Below, in pieces: positions 639 to 59,396 of a DNA stretch of 59,506 bases (the stretch's first letter is position 1; every line of letters begins with the position of its first letter). A model generated the notes under the pieces. That model searched no databases. It was not told the DNA's origin and saw only the letters and a list, made by a program, of their open reading frames with translations. The position numbers and the translations under genes are program-made. The stretch lies in the IMG/VR virus record IMGVR_UViG_3300028666_000037, positions 1-59,506 of that record. One strand, written 5' to 3'. This stretch comes from a virus.

Positions 639-1616
639 TTATGCGCGCGCCGCGACCGGCTGCGGAAACGCGCGATGCTCGCGGCCGTCGAGCCAGGCGC
701 CGGCATCCTTCTTCCCGACCCGCGCCATGTAACGCGAGCCCGGAATGACGCTGTGGCCGCCGGTGCGCTCTGAGACCTCGACATCGATTTCGCCGGTCGG
801 ATGCACGAGATCGACGTGACCGCGCCGAACGTCGCCGCCGAGATCGCCGCCCGGCACCGGCTTGAAAGGAATCCACTCACCCCATTGCTTAAAGAAGAAC
901 GGCACGCCGGCGGCGGCGCATTGGTCGCGCAGCAATCGCGGCCATGCCGGATGCATCGGCCGCGCCTTCGCGCCGCTTTCGCCGCCGGCGATCACCCAGT
1001 CGATGTGACCGTTGACGTAACGCAGCGGGTCGATGCCATCGGCGATGTCGCCGATCGGCACCGGCAGCGTGGCGGGCCGCGGCGTGCAGCCCAAATCGAT
1101 CGGGCCGAGCAGCGGCTCGCAGCTCAAGAAATGCACGGCCGCCGGCGTCGCGAGCAGCTTTGGAATGTCGCGATCGGCTTCTTCCTGATTGACGATCGAC
1201 GCGCCGAGCCAGACATTCGGATAACCGCGCTCCCAATCCGCCGGCAACATGTCGGCCGCATTGCCGATGCGCTTCGTCAGCAACAGCCAGTCAAGGTTCG
1301 GCGTCTTGCGGATGACATCCCAGAGACGCGGGCGCACCGCGCCGGGCCAGCGCTTGTCGAAGACGTCGGCCATGCTGGCGCAGAAAACCCGCGCGCGGCG
1401 GCCTTCATGGCGCGCGATCGAATTCCATTTGAAGGGCTGATCCCAATATTTGCCGGGAAACTCGCGGAACGGCGCATCAACGCCCCAGTGATTCCAGCCG
1501 AGCCGATGATCGAACGCCTCGGCATAGCAATGATCGCAGCCGGGCGAGACCTTGCTGCAACCCCACACCGGGTTGAAGGTATGATCGCACCATTCGATCG
1601 CGGAATTCTCGCCCAT
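639..1616 (-). CDS. DUF5131 (phage Gp37/Gp68 family) protein
   Basis: 325 aa. The N-terminus IEWCDHTFNPVWGCSKVSPG followed by CDHCYAE is the hallmark of the phage Gp37/Gp68 family (DUF5131), whose clustered cysteines and fold prediction suggest a radical-SAM-like enzyme; the substrate is unknown. Further family-like blocks are DWLLLTKR (about 108), NVWLGASI (about 134), FLSCEPLLGPID (about 162) and a late GGESG, PMHPAW and FFFKQWGEW. Start ATG at 1616 directly follows a 41-aa membrane gene and lies in one leftward unit with an MT-A70 methyltransferase and a ParB-like protein. That neighbourhood suggests a role in DNA or nucleotide modification, which is inference. Family call strong, biochemical role unproven. 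Confidence 0.85.
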   Translation of the reverse strand: MGENSAIEWCDHTFNPVWGCSKVSPGCDHCYAEAFDHRLGWNHWGVDAPFREFPGKYWDQPFKWNSIARHEGRRARVFCASMADVFDKRWPGAVRPRLWDVIRKTPNLDWLLLTKRIGNAADMLPADWERGYPNVWLGASIVNQEEADRDIPKLLATPAAVHFLSCEPLLGPIDLGCTPRPATLPVPIGDIADGIDPLRYVNGHIDWVIAGGESGAKARPMHPAWPRLLRDQCAAAGVPFFFKQWGEWIPFKPVPGGDLGGDVRRGHVDLVHPTGEIDVEVSERTGGHSVIPGSRYMARVGKKDAGAWLDGREHRAFPQPVAARA

Positions 1617-1619
1617 CGG

Positions 1620-1745
1620 TCAATGCAGCTTTCGAATGAGGGGCGCGAGCAACGCGATGAGGGCTGCCGCGGCGCCGAGGATGACGGTAAAGGCGAGCGC
1701 GAGATCGAGCGCGAGACGCAGCGCGAATTGATTGATCGCGGTCAT
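1620..1745 (-). CDS. 41-aa single-TM protein
   Basis: Short gene starting ATG at 1745, overlapping the stop of the MT-A70 gene as ATGA (1742-1745), and ending 3 nt before the DUF5131 start. The product has a short polar N-terminus (MTAINQFALRLALD) and one hydrophobic helix of about 22 residues rich in Ala, Leu and Ile, ending in a basic tail (IRKLH). The position and exact ATGA overlap support translation although it is tiny. No family recognised; possibly a small inner-membrane protein. Confidence 0.6.
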   Translation of the reverse strand: MTAINQFALRLALDLALAFTVILGAAAALIALLAPLIRKLH

Positions 1746-2350
1746 GGTGCCGCCGCCGCGAATTTGTCGGTTTCGTTGCCCCATGCCGCCCAGCCCGTGC
1801 GCTCCGATCGCGCGAAGAGCTCGCAGCGCGGGCCGGGAAAGAGTTGCTCGAGCAAAAGATATTGCTGATCGGGCTTGCGGCTGTGCTCGCGCAGCTTGCC
1901 GCAGATCGCCCATTCCTCGACCTGCCGGAACTCTTCACCGATGATGCCGTGAACCGGTTTGGTGATGACGGGCTTGCCGCGCCAGGCGAGCAACAGCGGC
2001 TCGGATACACTGCGCAGGACATAGCCCGTGCCGAAAGCAACCCGGTCACCATCGCGCGTCAGTTTCATCCAGGGGCCGCCGGTCGAATAGCTGAAGCCCC
2101 AGGCCTGGATCACCTTGAAGGCTTGCTCGAGGAACGGCCATGTCGTCCACAGCGCGAGCGCGCAGCCTTCCTCTCGCGCCAGCATGCCGACCGGCAAATC
2201 CATGATCTGCCCAATGGCAAGCGTGTCGTAATAGCGCTCAGGCTTCTTCGATTGGTTCGCGTCGTTATACGTCGCGAACTTCCACGGCGGATCGGCGAGG
2301 ATGAGGCGATAGCCGCGCGGCTGCAGCGGTGCGAACGGCCAGCTCGTCAT
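1742..2350 (-). CDS. MT-A70-family adenine methyltransferase
   Basis: 202 aa. The catalytic motif DPPW is at residues 20-23 (ILADPPWKF), followed by a Tyr-rich segment and ALALWTTWPFLEQA, matching the MT-A70 (Ime4-like) SAM-dependent N6-adenine methyltransferase family; later SEPLLLAWRGKP also fits. The family methylates adenine in DNA or RNA; phage members are usually orphan DNA methyltransferases that can protect against restriction. No cognate restriction gene is adjacent. Start ATG at 2350 overlaps the ParB-like gene stop (ATGA), and its own stop overlaps the next ATG, so translation is coupled. Target site unknown. Confidence 0.9.
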   Translation of the reverse strand: MTSWPFAPLQPRGYRLILADPPWKFATYNDANQSKKPERYYDTLAIGQIMDLPVGMLAREEGCALALWTTWPFLEQAFKVIQAWGFSYSTGGPWMKLTRDGDRVAFGTGYVLRSVSEPLLLAWRGKPVITKPVHGIIGEEFRQVEEWAICGKLREHSRKPDQQYLLLEQLFPGPRCELFARSERTGWAAWGNETDKFAAAAP

Positions 2351-4269
2351 TCCGCCGCTTCCTCGATTGTGTCATCCGCCGCCGGCGGATCGGTTTCATC
2401 CGTGATCATCGCGTCGACCGCTTGCTGCTCGGTCGCGGTCGGCTGGCGCGCGAGGCTCGCCTCGATCGCCATCTGACCCGCCATGTCGCGCTCGGCGAGA
2501 AAGCCGAGCTCGATGAATTTCTCCGGCGTCCAGAATTCGGCGGGTTGCGCGAGCATCAGCTTGACGAGCTCGCTCTTTTTCATCTTCGCGTCGCCGGCAA
2601 GGCCATTGGCCACGGCAAGCCCGACCAGCCGCGCCTGCGACATCGCCTGGAAATACGTCTCGGAAACCTGCCAATAGCGGAGCAATTGCTCCGCTGCGTT
2701 GACGGATCGGGCCATGGCGATCTCGAAGGGATCGTCGCCGATGCTGTGGCCGTTATGGCCGTTGACGCCGACGAGGCTTGAGACCAGCAGCGCGAAGATC
2801 TTGTCGAGACGGTTGTCCTCGAGCGCGATCAGGCCGTTGAAGAGCGCCGCGGCCTGCGCCTCGTCTTCGACGAAGCTCGCGCGCTGATCGAACGGATCGA
2901 GGTCGACCGGCTTCCGCGCGATGAGCTCGGCGACCGGCGTCATCACGAGGCGCTGCGCCGCGCGCTCGATCGCCGGCGTGTCATAGGTCCATTCCGGCAG
3001 CATCACGCTCGATGCCATGCGGACATTGTGCGCGCCGAGAAGACTGCAGATGACGATCGCCTTCGCGACCTTGGGCTGCGCCGCGACGCCAAAGCGCAGC
3101 GCCTGCGTTTTCGCGCGCTTGACGATGACGGTCTGGGCCGCGGTCATGAGGCGCGCGGGTTGCGGCGCGGCGGTGCCATCGCCAAGCGGTGCCGGTGCTT
3201 CGCCGCCGGTGATCTTCTCGGCCTTGCGGCGCTCGCGCAGGCGCTTGGCGGCCGTTTCCGGCCGCAATGCCGGCGCCAACACGGCCAAGGCACCGGCGCC
3301 GTCGATATAGACCACGGCGCCGGCCTCCGCGTCATTCTTGCGCGCGATCTCGTACTCATGCGGGCGCTTGCCGGTTTCGAGCCGATCGACCCAAGGCCAG
3401 TCGGTCTTGAGGGTTTTGATGCGCGCGATGATGGCCGCCTCCTGAAGCCTCATCGCCTGCTTGTCGTCGGCGAAAAATTTCTCGCCGGTCTCTTCATCCT
3501 CGAGCAGCTCGCCTTGATAAGCATGCGGCGGGAAGGCGGCGCGCTTCACCGGAAAGCGTTCCGACAGCATGTGGCCGCGGATGGTCTCGGCATCCCAGTC
3601 GTACTCGGTCGCCCGCTCGATGAAATCGCGCTGCGTCTTGGCGTCGCCGAGCGCGAAGGCGCGGGCCATCTCGATATCGATCTTGCCGCCGCGGAGGCGT
3701 TTCTGGATCTCGGGCACACAACGCAGAAGCTGACGCCGGCGCTTGACATGGCTTCCCGAGGTCCCGGCGATCTGGCCGATCTCGTCATTGGTGCGCCCGG
3801 CGTTGTGCAGCTCCTCGAAGGCCTCGGCCTCGTCGACCGGGTTGAGGCTGCGGCGCGCGATGTTCTCGATCAGCGCGGCATCGCGAATGTCGCGGTCGCT
3901 GTAATCGCCGACGAAAGCCGGCAGCTTGAAATCCTTGGCGATGCGGCCATCGCCGATGCCGAGCTTCGTCGCCCGCCAGCGCCGCTCGCCCCACACGATC
4001 TCATAGCGGCCGTCCTTGTCCGGACGCAGCGCGAGCGGTTGCAGAATACCCTTCGCCGCGATCGTGTCGGCGAGGCTGGTCAGATCGTCGTCGAACTTTT
4101 CCTTGCGCGGATTGAGCGGCGACGGATAGCACAACGCCGGATCGATCGGCACCGCCGAGCGGATCGCGGCGCCGAGCGGTGATTCCGGCAGGGCGAGGTT
4201 GCGTTGCGTGGTTGCCGGCTTGGCTTTTGCGGCGTTGCGCTTCGGCGGCGTTTTCTTCTTGGCGGACAT
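2347..4269 (-). CDS. ParB-like (ParB/RepB/Spo0J) nuclease-domain protein, large
   Basis: 640 aa from ATG at 4269, chosen because it shares one base with the upstream stop (TGATG) and begins MSAKKKTPPKRN; a longer reading upstream is not needed. Lys/Ala-rich leader 1-25, then a ParB N-terminal domain with NPRKEKFDDDLTSLADTI (53-70), the GERRWRA box (94-100) and an ENIxR-type box (ENIARRSLNPVDEAEAF, 135-151), then a KorB-like HTH (TNDEIGQIAGTSGSHVKRRR). The C-terminal 350 residues are not recognised and end in an acidic tail. Roles in this family range from partition to nuclease or transcription factor. No parA neighbour is present, so plasmid-like partition is unlikely. Confidence 0.85.
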   Translation of the reverse strand: MSAKKKTPPKRNAAKAKPATTQRNLALPESPLGAAIRSAVPIDPALCYPSPLNPRKEKFDDDLTSLADTIAAKGILQPLALRPDKDGRYEIVWGERRWRATKLGIGDGRIAKDFKLPAFVGDYSDRDIRDAALIENIARRSLNPVDEAEAFEELHNAGRTNDEIGQIAGTSGSHVKRRRQLLRCVPEIQKRLRGGKIDIEMARAFALGDAKTQRDFIERATEYDWDAETIRGHMLSERFPVKRAAFPPHAYQGELLEDEETGEKFFADDKQAMRLQEAAIIARIKTLKTDWPWVDRLETGKRPHEYEIARKNDAEAGAVVYIDGAGALAVLAPALRPETAAKRLRERRKAEKITGGEAPAPLGDGTAAPQPARLMTAAQTVIVKRAKTQALRFGVAAQPKVAKAIVICSLLGAHNVRMASSVMLPEWTYDTPAIERAAQRLVMTPVAELIARKPVDLDPFDQRASFVEDEAQAAALFNGLIALEDNRLDKIFALLVSSLVGVNGHNGHSIGDDPFEIAMARSVNAAEQLLRYWQVSETYFQAMSQARLVGLAVANGLAGDAKMKKSELVKLMLAQPAEFWTPEKFIELGFLAERDMAGQMAIEASLARQPTATEQQAVDAMITDETDPPAADDTIEEAAE

Positions 4270-4517
4270 CACGTGACTCCGTTGTGATCGGGGCAAAGCG
4301 CGGCGAAACTGGTCAGCGTTCCTTCGAACCGTCCGCGCCTGCAGCGGCCCAGGACGTCGCTGCTGCGGCCCCAGCCGGTGCAATTGCCGCAGCCTCGCTC
4401 GGTCAGGATGAAAGGCGGCGCCGGCGGCTCATCGCTCCGGGGGATGGAGCGAGAGCCGCGCCGGGCCTCGGTCGCGGCGGCGGCTTCACGCCGTTGCGCG
4501 TCGAAGAGATCAGGCAT
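4269..4517 (-). CDS. Cys-rich small phage protein (putative zinc finger)
   Basis: 82 aa. C-terminal half contains CGNCTGWGRSSDVLGRC and later LCPDH: four cysteines plus a His spaced like a small metal-binding knuckle. The N-terminus is polar and starts MPDLFDAQRREAAAA. Overlaps its downstream ParB-like gene by one base and the upstream gene by 8 nt. Looks like a phage-typical zinc-binding small protein. Function unknown. Confidence 0.6.
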   Translation of the reverse strand: MPDLFDAQRREAAAATEARRGSRSIPRSDEPPAPPFILTERGCGNCTGWGRSSDVLGRCRRGRFEGTLTSFAALCPDHNGVT

Positions 4518-16152: not shown

Positions 16153-17074
16153 CCGCCTTCAGACGGGTGCGCTCGCGCTCGCGGCAAATGAAACCGCCGG
16201 TGCGCGGCCGAATGCCGGCGCTGGGCCTTGGGCTGCGGTCAATCGCATTCTTTCAGCACTTGGACGGCGCCTCACGGCGCTCGAGCAACGCCCGATTGCA
16301 CGCGATGGCCGTGATGGTTTCAACGGCCGGGACGGCATTAATGGTCTTGATGGCAAGGATGGCCGCCCTGGCGCGTCCGGCGAGGATGGCGCGCCTGGCC
16401 GCGACGGTCTCGATGGCAAAGACGGCATTAACGGTCTCGACGGCAAAAATGGCCTCGCTGGCATGGACGGCGCACCTGGCCGCGATGGCGTTGATGGCAA
16501 AGATGGCAAGAATGGTCTCGACGGCAAAGACGGTGCGCCCGGTGCGGATGGTAAGGATGGCGCGCCCGGCTGCGACGGCGTTGATGGCAAAGATGGCAAG
16601 GATGGACTCGACGGCAAAGACGGCGCACCTGGCGCGGATGGTGAGGACGGTACCGTCGGCCGCGACGGTCTTGCTGGTCGCGACGGTCGCGACGGCAAAG
16701 ACGGGCGCGGCATTGTCGCGGTCGAGCGTGACGCGCAAGGCCACGTTGTGCTGCGCTTTTCCGACGGTGCGAGCGAGATCTTCGATCTGAAGGGCCCTCC
16801 GGGCAAGGATGGCCGTGACGGGGTGAATGGCAAAGACGGCAATCCTGGCCATGACGGGCGCGACGGCAAGGATGGCGTTCCTGGAAAACAAGGGGCGCCC
16901 GGAAAAGCCGGCCGCGATGGCAAAGATGGCGCGGCGGGTGCGGCAGGATCGGCGCTCGAGCTCGGTTACGTGCAAAATGCCGAACTCTCCACGCGCAATC
17001 TCTCAAATCTGAATGTTCGCGAGCTCATCATCGATGGCGAGCGTCTGCGCGTTCTTGTATTGCCCGGAGGCTGA
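16145..17074 (+). CDS. Collagen-like Gly-X-Y repeat protein
   Basis: 309 aa. Residues 1-55 globular (MANRLQTGALALAANETAGA, then NRILSALGRRLTALEQRP), followed by about 40 Gly-X-Y triplets such as GKDGINGLDGKNGLAG and GPPGKDGRDG, split once by a non-collagenous insert (GRGIVAVERDAQGHVVLRFS), then a C-terminal cap of about 50 residues (LELGYVQNAELSTRNLSNLN). The repeats are rich in GKDG and GRDG, a common bacterial and phage collagen pattern that forms stable triple helices without hydroxyproline. Placement between portal and protease is unusual; such proteins are often fibres or head decorations. No scaffold signature. Confidence 0.85.
   Translation: MANRLQTGALALAANETAGARPNAGAGPWAAVNRILSALGRRLTALEQRPIARDGRDGFNGRDGINGLDGKDGRPGASGEDGAPGRDGLDGKDGINGLDGKNGLAGMDGAPGRDGVDGKDGKNGLDGKDGAPGADGKDGAPGCDGVDGKDGKDGLDGKDGAPGADGEDGTVGRDGLAGRDGRDGKDGRGIVAVERDAQGHVVLRFSDGASEIFDLKGPPGKDGRDGVNGKDGNPGHDGRDGKDGVPGKQGAPGKAGRDGKDGAAGAAGSALELGYVQNAELSTRNLSNLNVRELIIDGERLRVLVLPGG
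16306..16950. repeat. 9-nt codon repeats encoding Gly-X-Y triplets
   Basis: Tandem GGC-NNN-NNN codons (often GATGGCAAAGATGGC) underlie the collagen-like gene. Internal identity makes it prone to slippage and assembly error. Confidence 0.85.
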
Positions 17075-51549: not shown

Positions 51550-51936
51550 TCAGCCCGCGAGCGCCTTCTCGGCGGCCTCGACCAAGAAAGCCGAGCGGTT
51601 GGGATTCCGTTCTTCGATCCGGCGTAGCAGATCCTCGGGCAGCATGACGTTGACGCGGACGCGGCGCGCCGACGGCACATCGACGCGCACCAGGATCCGG
51701 GCCACTTCGCGCACCTCGGGATCGTGCCGGATATCGTCGAGCGCGCTCGGCTCGGGAATGCGCTGACCTTCCTCGATCATCAGCTCGATATGCCCCTTCA
51801 GCCCTTCCTCGGCCATGCGCGCGGCTTCCTGAAGATCGCCGCCAGCGCTGGCGAGGCCCGGAATGTCGGGAAAGAACACGCTATAGCCGGGCTCGTCTCC
51901 GTTCTCGACGACGGCGGGAAAATATAAGACTGCCAT
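51550..51936 (-). CDS. hicB: HicB-like antitoxin
   Basis: 128 aa. N-terminal HicB fold (YFPAVVENGDEPGYSVFFPD, IPGLASAGGDLQEAARMAEE); C-terminal ribbon-helix-helix-like RVRVNVMLPEDLLRRIEERN, PNRSAFLVEAAEKAL. It neutralises HicA and represses the hicAB promoter. Starts 9 nt after hicA. Confidence 0.9.
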   Translation of the reverse strand: MAVLYFPAVVENGDEPGYSVFFPDIPGLASAGGDLQEAARMAEEGLKGHIELMIEEGQRIPEPSALDDIRHDPEVREVARILVRVDVPSARRVRVNVMLPEDLLRRIEERNPNRSAFLVEAAEKALAG

Positions 51937-51945
51937 GATGATCTC

Positions 51946-52134
51946 CTATCGAAGCCTGACGCCTGATTGCCGCTCGATACTCTTGAGCGTTCCGATTTTG
52001 ATGTCCTTCACGGGATGCGGCACCGTCACCAGCCCCGGCTTCGTCGGATGATTGAAATGGTGATGGCTCCCGGTTATGCGCTTCAACTGCCACCCGTCAT
52101 CCTTGAGAGCCGAGATGATGTCCGCGCTATTCAT
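51946..52134 (-). CDS. hicA: HicA-like mRNA interferase toxin
   Basis: 62 aa from ATG at 52134, chosen over a longer upstream start because the promoter and operator lie there. MNSADIISALKDDGWQLKRI, then TGSHHHFNHPTKPGLVTVPH and IGTLKSIERQSGV: dsRBD-like HicA with the catalytic His in GSHHHF. Precedes hicB, the usual order. In a phage such pairs serve prophage maintenance or defence against other phages. Confidence 0.92.
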   Translation of the reverse strand: MNSADIISALKDDGWQLKRITGSHHHFNHPTKPGLVTVPHPVKDIKIGTLKSIERQSGVRLR

Positions 52135-52170
52135 GTGTGTAAGACTACACACCATGCCCGCGCCCGTCAA
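52135..52170 (-). promoter_or_regulatory. hicAB promoter with overlapping operator
   Basis: Minus strand: TTGACG (52170-52165), 17-bp spacer, TAGTCT (52147-52142). The inverted repeat GTGTGT-6 nt-ACACAC (52135-52152) covers the -10 and is the likely HicB/HicAB operator. Transcription start would be about 52135, next to the ATG at 52134. Confidence 0.75.
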
Positions 52171-52356
52171 GCAAGAATGTGTGCCCGTGTGTATTAAATC
52201 CAGATTAATCCGGTTGCCCCCGCCGCCGAACGCTCCGCGAACAAACTCCACGGATTTTCCACGGCTTTGAAGCGCATGTTCTGGCAGCGTTCTGCAAGAT
52301 GCTGCATCGGGCGCCGGAATGCCCCTATCGAAAAGCGCGGATTTGCTTGGGTTTTA

Positions 52357-56652: not shown

Positions 56653-57558
56653 TCACCAGCCTCGCCCTGGCACATAGGTCGCGCGCGGCTTGCCTTCGCC
56701 ATTTTTGACGCGCAGATATTTATCGGTCTCGCAAAGAATGTTCGGCACGTCGCTGAAATCCATCACGACGCCGGTCTCATCGGTCACGCGCTCATAGATC
56801 GCGCGCATTTCCTCGAGCGCGCGATCCTGCGGCAAGGAAAAATCAAGGCGCCGGCCGTGCAAGCGATTGAGCCCGCGGATCGTGCCGGGCCCGGCCGCGG
56901 CCCATTTCTGCCGGTCGGCGGCATGCTCGAGCAATTTGGTAAAGCGCATGTCGACCACGGCTTGATAGGCCATGAACGCCCCCCATCCGGGGAATCGCAT
57001 CAGGTCCATGTGAACGTCGCGCAGGGAAGGCTTGCCGCCGAAGAGCAATCGAAACGTGCCGATGCGCTGCCACAGCGTGCCGATCACGGTCTCGGCGATG
57101 TAGCGGCTTTTCGGCTGGCCCTTTTCGCTGCCGGCGCTGATCACATAGGCGCCGGTCCAAACCTTGGCGCCCTGCTCTTTGCGATCCTCAAGAAGCTCGG
57201 TTAGAAGATCGGGGCGCCAGTGGGGATGCGACGGCCAGGCGTCGCCTTGATTACGGCCAATCCAATCGTCGCCAGTATCGCTGACACCGTACATCGCGAC
57301 GGCCAAGGTTTCGGGCCAATTGATTTGACGCGCGATGCACAGCATGAGCCACAGCAAGGGATGATCGGCGAAGGGCTCGCGGATGTGTTTGCGGATCCAG
57401 ATTGTCACGCGATCGTCTTCACGGCGCACATTGCAGAAGCGATAAGCCGCCAGGATCGGATCGCCGGTCAGCGGCGCGCCAACTGGCCGGCGCAGCTTGC
57501 GCTCGCGGATCGCCTCGCGTTCCTTGACCCAGTACCACAGCGGCGCGTAGTCAACCAT
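56653..57558 (-). CDS. Clade-2 alpha-glutamyl/putrescinyl-thymine pyrophosphorylase-like protein
   Basis: 301 aa from ATG at 57558 (site GAGGGAAGCGGAA). TGDPILAAYRFCNVRREDDR (about 33-52), then LLWLMLCIARQINWPETLAV and TGDDWIGRNQGDA; late PGWGAFMAYQAVVDMRF and AAGPGTIRGLNRL, the latter an HhH-like pattern. This order matches aGPT-Pplase2 proteins described from hypermodified-DNA phages, also labelled nucleotide kinase domain proteins. They would act on 5-hydroxymethyl-dU-derived thymine. No dUMP hydroxymethylase is visible in the window, so the pathway is incomplete or host-supplied. Confidence 0.7.
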   Translation of the reverse strand: MVDYAPLWYWVKEREAIRERKLRRPVGAPLTGDPILAAYRFCNVRREDDRVTIWIRKHIREPFADHPLLWLMLCIARQINWPETLAVAMYGVSDTGDDWIGRNQGDAWPSHPHWRPDLLTELLEDRKEQGAKVWTGAYVISAGSEKGQPKSRYIAETVIGTLWQRIGTFRLLFGGKPSLRDVHMDLMRFPGWGAFMAYQAVVDMRFTKLLEHAADRQKWAAAGPGTIRGLNRLHGRRLDFSLPQDRALEEMRAIYERVTDETGVVMDFSDVPNILCETDKYLRVKNGEGKPRATYVPGRGW

Positions 57559-57569
57559 TTCCGCTTCCC

Positions 57570-57656
57570 TCACTTATAGGTGCGCATCGCCGCGTGCATC
57601 GCGATCAGAAACACCACGCCGATCGCGACCCATTGCAAACCATCCATGTCGCTCAT
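57570..57656 (-). CDS. 28-aa TM peptide
   Basis: Decoded: MSDMDGLQWVAIGVVFLIAM, HAAMRTYK. Ribosome site AGGGAAGCGGAA upstream. One TM helix. Very short; supported by the site and clean start and stop. Function unknown. Confidence 0.5.
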   Translation of the reverse strand: MSDMDGLQWVAIGVVFLIAMHAAMRTYK

Positions 57657-57984: not shown

Positions 57985-58258
57985 CGCAAAGCCTCTTGAG
58001 TGTGCGGATCTCCTCGCCAGCATTGGAGAAGAGCGGCAGCGCGCCATGAAGGCCTCGATTTCCGCGGTCGGTACATTCGGACAGCTTCAGCGGATGCGCG
58101 TCTTGCTCGAATGCGGCGCGCGCCAGGCCGTAATCGCGGGCCTGTTCAAAGGCGTGCTCGAGCTTGGCGTCAAAGCCTTTGGAAAAGACTGCGAGCTGAT
58201 CAAGATCGCGACGCGCTTCGCGGGCGAGACGTTTCGGGGCTATGCGGGGGTTTTTCAT
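57977..58258 (-). CDS. 93-aa hypothetical protein
   Basis: ATG at 58258 (MKNPRIAPKRLAREARRDLD). Basic helical N-terminus; ends EEIRTLKRLCDD. ATGA overlap with the upstream gene. Function unknown. Confidence 0.55.
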   Translation of the reverse strand: MKNPRIAPKRLAREARRDLDQLAVFSKGFDAKLEHAFEQARDYGLARAAFEQDAHPLKLSECTDRGNRGLHGALPLFSNAGEEIRTLKRLCDD

Positions 58259-58593
58259 GGTGTCTTCCAATCTGGAAATGCTCGCTCGAGCGAGCGGTCC
58301 CACCATCTTTGCCGCAATCCGCGAAAGCCGGGAATAGGTGCGTCTATCGTGACCGCAACGCCGCCGCCGCGCCGACAAATGCAGCCGGATTGAACGCGCG
58401 TCACCGGCGCAAACCCGCGCAGCTTGCCATGCGCGACCACATAGAAGCGATCGCCGGGCTTGATCAGGCGCACGAATGAATGCCCACTAAACCAGCCCCA
58501 TTCTTCGCCGGTCTCAGGGTCGCCGGCCGCGTCGCCCTCGGCAATCCAGTCAAACCAGAAATCTTTTGGGCAGGTGCCGACGAGATCCGTCAT
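58255..58593 (-). CDS. ASCH/PUA-like phage protein
   Basis: 112 aa from ATG at 58593. CPKDFWFDWIAEGDAAGDPE, TGEEWGWFSGHSFVRLIKPG, DRFYVVAHGKLRGFAPVTRV and FRGLRQRWWDR. The KPGDRFYVVAHGKLRGF part looks like the ASCH/PUA beta-barrel family, which binds RNA or modified bases. ATGA overlaps at both ends. Function not established. Confidence 0.55.
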   Translation of the reverse strand: MTDLVGTCPKDFWFDWIAEGDAAGDPETGEEWGWFSGHSFVRLIKPGDRFYVVAHGKLRGFAPVTRVQSGCICRRGGGVAVTIDAPIPGFRGLRQRWWDRSLERAFPDWKTP

Positions 58594-58829
58594 GATGCGG
58601 CGTGCGAGCGGTTGAGTTTCACGGCCTCTTCCCAGGCGGCATGGATCTTTTCGGCATCGTCGCCGATGCGCGCCAGGGTCCGCACGCCGTTGAGCGACGC
58701 CCAAACACTGATTTTCATCCGGTCGGCAAGCTCAACCATTTCCTTGATCACGTTCGGGATCCGCGCGCCGCCATACACGCTGACCTCGATATAGAGATCG
58801 TTTTTTTCGTCGACTCTCATCTGACCCAT
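58590..58829 (-). CDS. 79-aa hypothetical protein
   Basis: MGQMRVDEKNDLYIEVSVYG, GARIPNVIKEMVELADRMKI. Beta-alpha mixed, acidic. ATGA overlap downstream. Function unknown. Confidence 0.55.
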   Translation of the reverse strand: MGQMRVDEKNDLYIEVSVYGGARIPNVIKEMVELADRMKISVWASLNGVRTLARIGDDAEKIHAAWEEAVKLNRSHAAS

Positions 58830-58838
58830 AATTGAGCC

Positions 58839-59396
58839 TTATGCGTCTCGGCGCATGAGCCGCGCCGTCTTGGCGCGCTTCTGTGCACCACGCACCGCTG
58901 CCCGCAGCTCGTCGCGTAAGCGGATTTTCTCGAAGAGCGATTTGTGGCCGGCGAGCTCGTTACAACGGCGATGCGCGATCGCACTATTAGAGAGATGATT
59001 CGGTCCGCCACTCGTTAGCGGAATGAGATATTCGATCGTCTCAAAGCCGGGCGGGATTGGTTCCGGGCAATAAAAGCATCCGGGACCATCGCGCTCGATC
59101 AAGGTCGCGATGATCTGCGCGCGTTGATCACCGGCAGGATGTGGCGCTTTCTCTCGGGCACGATAGGTCCCGTGTGAGGTGAAGGCGCGCCAGGGCTCGC
59201 GTACCGGCCCGATGAATTTGAGCACGCCTTTCTTGTCACGGTAGATGACGGCCGTTCCGGCGCCGGTGCGAAACCGCAGCACTTCGTAAGCATTGCTCGA
59301 GGAAAAAATCTCGGCGCCACTCGCATTCAAGAAGTTCTTGAAGGCGGTGAGCCGCCGCACAGATAGCTCGCTGATGTGGAACGGGAGCCCGCTCAC
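58839..59396 (-). CDS. HNH-like protein with Tyr at the catalytic His position
   Basis: 185 aa. Cys pair CFYC (107-110), then GFETIEYLIPLTSGGPNHLS with Asn137 and HRRCNELAGHK (His142, Cys145). Usual HNH would have DH or EH before LIPL; here Tyr123 (codon TAT at 59028-59030, one transition from CAT). The rest of the HNH frame is kept, so it may be an inactive or altered nuclease. N-terminal 100 residues differ from common HNH genes. Starts 5 nt after the junction-gene stop. Confidence 0.75.
   Translation of the reverse strand: MSGLPFHISELSVRRLTAFKNFLNASGAEIFSSSNAYEVLRFRTGAGTAVIYRDKKGVLKFIGPVREPWRAFTSHGTYRAREKAPHPAGDQRAQIIATLIERDGPGCFYCPEPIPPGFETIEYLIPLTSGGPNHLSNSAIAHRRCNELAGHKSLFEKIRLRDELRAAVRGAQKRAKTARLMRRDA

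Follow-up and report, generated by a model that had tools for sequence, protein, structure and literature searches.

A stand-alone helical domain of the 5-hmdU DNA kinase system in a phage genome without recognised hypermodification partners

We analysed a whole virus record of 59,506 bases (IMGVR_UViG_3300028666_000037; hereafter the window), and partner searches covered all of that record. One of its genes appears to encode the helical, DNA-facing half of a 5-hmdU DNA kinase system, detached from the kinase half. It falls in a supported subfamily that counts about 30 loci, most of them on phage contigs. We judge it about an even bet that this is a freed helical half acting outside the M6-type pathway, and not in hypermodification of the phage's own DNA. 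The protein now probably has a different job from thymine decoration, and a DNA-base-reading role outside the known pathway is the one that we consider most likely. The features discussed below are collected in Table 1.

Table 1. The helical gene and neighbouring features of the window.
Feature	Coordinates	Strand	Basis and remarks
Stand-alone HMUDK_hel (aGPT-Pplase1) protein	56653..57573	-	PF18723, AlphaFold2 model, orphan subfamily in tree
DUF5131, predicted radical-SAM	639..1616	-	PF07505 E 2.6e-86; about 2.6 kb upstream of helical gene if contig circular
MT-A70-type DNA adenine methyltransferase, same early gene run	1742..2350	-	PF05063 E 4.8e-25; PADLOC MTase_II; neighbourhood only
ParB_N + HTH_ParB protein, 678 aa, overlaps MT-A70 gene	2347..4383	-	PF02195 E 2.8e-18, PF17762 E 2.6e-09; neighbourhood only
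Small ASCH/PUA-like protein (by eye only), 0.7 kb upstream of helical gene	58255..58704	-	
HNH endonuclease, upstream in helical gene's run	58839..59396	-	PHROG 7785 E 4.2e-14; neighbourhood only

The open reading frame encodes 306 residues from a GTG start at 57573. An alternative start, the ATG at 57558 (MVDYAPLW), gives 301 residues; it is the point at which the initial annotation had ended the gene, and it lies inside the longer GTG-started frame. The protein covers the PF18723 profile (HMUDK_hel, 5-hmdU DNA kinase helical domain) at full length, from position 6 to 278 of 281, with E 9.6e-39 and 133.9 bits against a curated cut-off of 25 bits, and it matches PHROG 2396 at E 2.5e-56. The motif blocks that first drew attention to the gene, RFCNVRREDDRV and INWPETL (here within QINWPETL), are both present in the ORF and form part of the conserved core of the family. 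In a set of 51 homologs 24 columns are invariant, and R46, E47, D49 and the INWP block, all hallmarks of the family, are invariant or nearly so; invariance is meant within this 51-row set, and some far plasmid and phage relatives deviate at a few positions. The PF18723 invariants kept in the window protein are R46, E47, D49, K150, D215, GPG223-225, C276, E277 and K280.

Annotations of homologs (AN14, SN1 and Pam3) name this family aGPT-Pplase clade 1 (PMC9476957), and homolog records equate clade 2 with the ADDT family, PF18724. The initial annotation had assigned the protein to clade 2 of the alpha-glutamyl/putrescinyl-thymine pyrophosphorylases. Membership of a thymidine-hypermodification family stands, through PF18723, but the clade has to be changed from 2 to 1. 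The PF18724 profile matched neither the window protein nor any other part of the record, while M6, TM26, Pam3 and Sonora do score, and clade 2 identity is thereby ruled out. A sequence-profile comparison of the window family with ADDT was likewise not significant (E 0.15). The clade-1 domain, moreover, is now tied to 5-hmdU DNA kinase and not to a demonstrated pyrophosphorylase.

An AlphaFold2 model of the window protein was obtained with high confidence scores (pLDDT 92, pTM 0.90). Its matches in BFVD were proteins of phiRSL1 (E 3.4e-16, TM 0.83), PhiW-14 and SP10, all of them HMUDK_hel-like. Searches by sequence for a solved structure of the PF18723 family, and for the M6 kinase in the PDB, found none. 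The top PDB match of the model was the PaMx11 5-PmdU glycinyltransferase (gp46, 8z2m), a member of the ADDT family (aGPT-Pplase2), with Z 10.3; it was followed by an archaeal 8-oxoguanine glycosylase (Z 10.1) and the queuine-salvage protein DUF2419 (Z 10.0). ADDT is thus the closest solved fold, and by eye it shares similar GPW..FK.AD and LC.WK motifs with the window protein, although the profile results given above separate the two. Against DNA glycosylases the Z scores were 8-10, which is modest for a helical protein; the Foldseek E value was about 0.09, and Foldseek returned nothing from the PDB at E below 0.001. At these modest scores the structural matches are compatible with a helix-hairpin-helix DNA-glycosylase-like fold.

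Bacillus phage SBSphiC encodes a 636-residue fusion with a PF18748 kinase at 35-193 and PF18723 at 312-597, and the SP10 protein that matches our model is a 637-residue protein named 5-hmdU DNA kinase. The C-terminal half of these two-domain enzymes is the domain of the window protein, whereas their N-terminal P-loop kinase half is absent from the window gene and was not found in the window genome. In M6 the two halves are separate adjoining genes, gp54 (kinase) and gp55 (helical), with the ADDT gene gp51, the radical-SAM gene gp53 and the TS-family hydroxymethylase gene gp58 nearby; PaMx11, Rhizobium phage TM26, Pam3 and Sonora have a similar layout. M6 gp55 resembles the window protein in its full-length match to the Pfam family, in its invariant residues and at about 41% identity, but of the M6 partners the kinase, ADDT and TS were not found in the window. 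M6 gp54 (L037:8363-8926) and PaMx11 gp49 (L212:6432-7001) are annotated as "terminase small subunit"; M6 gp54 matches the 5-hmdU DNA kinase family.

In six IMG/VR records and in Brevibacterium phage LuckyBarnes, TS accompanies the helical gene although no PF18748 kinase was found, so the hydroxymethylase, not the kinase, is its commonest partner. This partnership suggests that it is the helical domain that deals with the modified base in DNA. In LuckyBarnes (L130), whose genome gave no PF18748 match, the helical gene has two glycosyltransferase genes and TS as neighbours, and this arrangement possibly represents a glycosylated-hmdU route.

We searched the whole 59.5-kb window for the pathway partners. 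Neither PF00303 (TS family, dUMP hydroxymethylase) nor the hydroxymethylase-like TS of locus L046 used as a query gave a match in the record. PF18748 (5-hmdU kinase) matched neither the window protein nor the record, and no Walker A motif was seen in the early ORFs; PF18748 is not fully sensitive, as it found none in PhiW-14 and scored the PaMx11 kinase below cut-off, and a divergent kinase could therefore escape detection. PF00303, by comparison, detected TS in all of the characterised hmdU phage records on which it was tried (M6, PhiW-14, Det7 and PaMx11). The initial annotation had reported that it could see no hydroxymethylase, kinase or attachment enzyme and had proposed an HMM search against the modification families; with PF00303, PF18748 and PF18724 (amino acid:DNA transferase) all negative across the record, that observation is borne out.

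The rest of the genome comprises an S24-type repressor, an integrase, terminase, portal, capsid and tail genes and a HicAB pair, and we recognised no DNA polymerase or nucleotide-metabolism gene. On this content it resembles a temperate phage that carries no polymerase we could recognise. The HicB-like antitoxin and HicA toxin (51550-52251, minus strand) follow the tail genes and were placed by ORF size and order. Adjoining the portal gene, positions 16331-16884 hold 27-90-base repeats rich in GAC-GGC that encode a collagen-like Gly-Lys-Asp/Asn-Gly pattern.

Both contig ends (1-107 and 59470-59506) fall in one Ala/Tyr (GCC/TAC) repeat within a single minus-strand ORF that is in frame on both sides. 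The record is therefore probably circular and nearly complete, with its linear map broken at the repeat; no second viral contig carrying the right-hand end of the join was found. Ends that fall within one in-frame repeat ORF leave little space for missing genes, and a circular join would bring the left-end DUF5131 and MT-A70 genes into the same leftward run as the helical gene, upstream of it.

The window protein is not alone in its setting. We drew homologs from IMG/VR and bacterial genomes and compared their flanks by tblastn: TS was present at 49/56 loci of other types and at 1/31 orphan loci. Over whole virus records, PF00303 found TS in one of 30 orphan records (L025, about 14 kb away) and in all ten of the others; Fisher p is about 1e-8, a value that is indicative only, given related sequences and fragments. 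Of TS, kinase and ADDT, these orphan records yielded only the TS of L025. A maximum-likelihood tree has a branch with 96/95 support that sets the orphans apart, the window protein among them; their side also includes a single TS-bearing row on a long branch (L113).

Against this background the phage could still hypermodify thymine in its own DNA by the known route, with partners that are too divergent to recognise or that lie in a gap between the two contig ends. Membership of PF18723 and the kinases missed by PF18748 are compatible with such a route, and a hydroxymethylase does stand next to the helical gene at L046. Yet TS accompanies the domain at most comparable loci and in all the characterised hmdU phage records tried and is missing here, the contig ends leave little space for further genes, and no polymerase or nucleotide genes were recognised. 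We accordingly regard it as unlikely that the phage carries out thymidine hypermodification of a known type on its own DNA, and the specific case of overlooked partners as rather improbable.

Loss of the usual partners might instead mean that the gene is a decaying, functionless remnant. The reading frame is intact in the orphan loci examined, however, and dN/dS was 0.08-0.22 in five orphan pairs; purifying selection of this strength (about 0.1-0.2) indicates that the orphan proteins work. Together with the 24 invariant columns, these values make decay barely credible. The gene is not a host housekeeping gene, as a scan of one host order found it in only 1/397 genomes.

The orphans differ from the other set at 20 positions, where almost all of them carry a residue seldom seen in that set (E15, R18, R45, D48 and F206 among them). 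We considered whether these changes prove a substrate switch in the pocket, and dropped the argument because PhiW-14, a phage known to have thymine-hypermodified DNA (PMC6449724), carries key orphan-type residues (E15, R18, D48 and H183). Within the subfamily, L046 (an alphaproteobacterial MAG) encodes a helical protein 61% identical to that of the window, but differs in having a hydroxymethylase-like TS, 46% identical to phage hydroxymethylases, that starts 16 nt downstream. In its sister L045 the single TS is an ordinary host one, located elsewhere in the genome. With TS next door in L046, hmdU may still be the substrate.

Another possibility is that the protein acts in trans, made by the prophage to recognise 5-hmdU-type bases in the DNA of competing phages and so exclude them. 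Such a role would account for a phage in which no hmdU source was found and for the residues shared with PhiW-14, a true hmdU phage. The S24-type repressor gene also heads the leftward run that contains the helical gene, which would fit expression in lysogens. In a 2026 screen, defence systems that contain 5-hmdU kinase and TS domains were validated, and aGPT-Pplase is listed among the predicted ones (PMC13092281). Far relatives on the plasmids L228, L230 and L231 have TS or dCTP deaminase as neighbours and are accompanied by TIR or HTH/ImmA-IrrE genes, in what looks like a bacterial defence-like island. On the other hand, the window protein has no PADLOC match and no toxic or nuclease domain, and the known helical proteins belong to modifying, not attacking, pathways. 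We consider action in trans unlikely.

The initial annotation had suggested that DUF5131 and the unassigned neighbours might fill the missing steps in a new way. For the ASCH/PUA-like and Cys-rich ORFs this found no support, as neither gave a convincing family match in Pfam or PHROG. DUF5131 is the one plausible candidate. Its model best matches spore photoproduct lyase (4rh0; VIA-align Z 13.1, 210 aligned), followed by viperin and RlmN, and C20, C27 and C30 are invariant among 29 homologs, with CX6CX2C spacing compared with the classic CX3CX2C; it is predicted to be a radical-SAM enzyme with a spore-photoproduct-lyase-like fold. In the collection of papers searched, none mentions DUF5131.

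The DUF5131 gene lies within about 3 kb of the helical gene and on the same strand in the window and in L007, L010, L014, L019 and L047, and in L014 the two genes overlap at stop and start. Together the two proteins could modify thymine directly from its 5-methyl group, making a hydroxymethylase unnecessary. Spore photoproduct lyase acts on thymine in DNA, and M6-type operons also contain a radical-SAM gene. Against this route, DUF5131 was found in only 8/30 orphan virus records, is very common without the helical gene, which was in the flanks of none of the 80 best DUF5131 loci (0/80), and matches PADLOC defence-candidate models. DUF5131 is thus unsupported as an obligatory partner, and its link to the helical gene is no more than suggestive. 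For a neutral base rate of DUF5131, terminase relatives gave only 10 loci and integrase relatives none, too few to derive one. We hold direct modification by the pair to be distinctly improbable, and its more specific form, in which the helical domain would present thymine in DNA to an SPL-like DUF5131 that attacks the 5-methyl group free of any hydroxymethylase, to be very improbable.

Among 137 proteins encoded near orphan genes, the most frequent Pfam families were DUF5131 (5 proteins) and DUF4326 (4); ParB_N, SNF2, integrase and primase zinc finger were among the families with 3, and MT-A70 and D12 methyltransferases had 2 each. No neighbour recurred in most orphan loci. Several unrelated phages (L007, L010, L019, L048 and L055) do, however, repeatedly show DUF4326-type and ASCH-like proteins close to their orphan helical gene, and in L017 a stretch 73% identical to the ASCH/PUA-like protein of the window lies close upstream of the helical gene (tblastn).

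Together, these results favour the view that the window protein is a freed helical half. In our model it would adopt the glycosylase-like fold and hold a thymine-type base, flipped out of DNA, in a pocket of invariant residues. It would serve some partner or reaction distinct from the known kinase, would act early in infection or in the prophage, and would have no part in M6-type hypermodification of its own phage's DNA.

Gene finders label such proteins "5-hmdU DNA kinase" or "hypermodification", from which readers infer that the phage DNA is modified, and a whole subfamily breaks that inference. The orphan subfamily further sets apart a component of the pathway that is poorly understood. Should the helical half function by itself, what it does, be it base reading, flipping or chemistry, would be measurable without the kinase.
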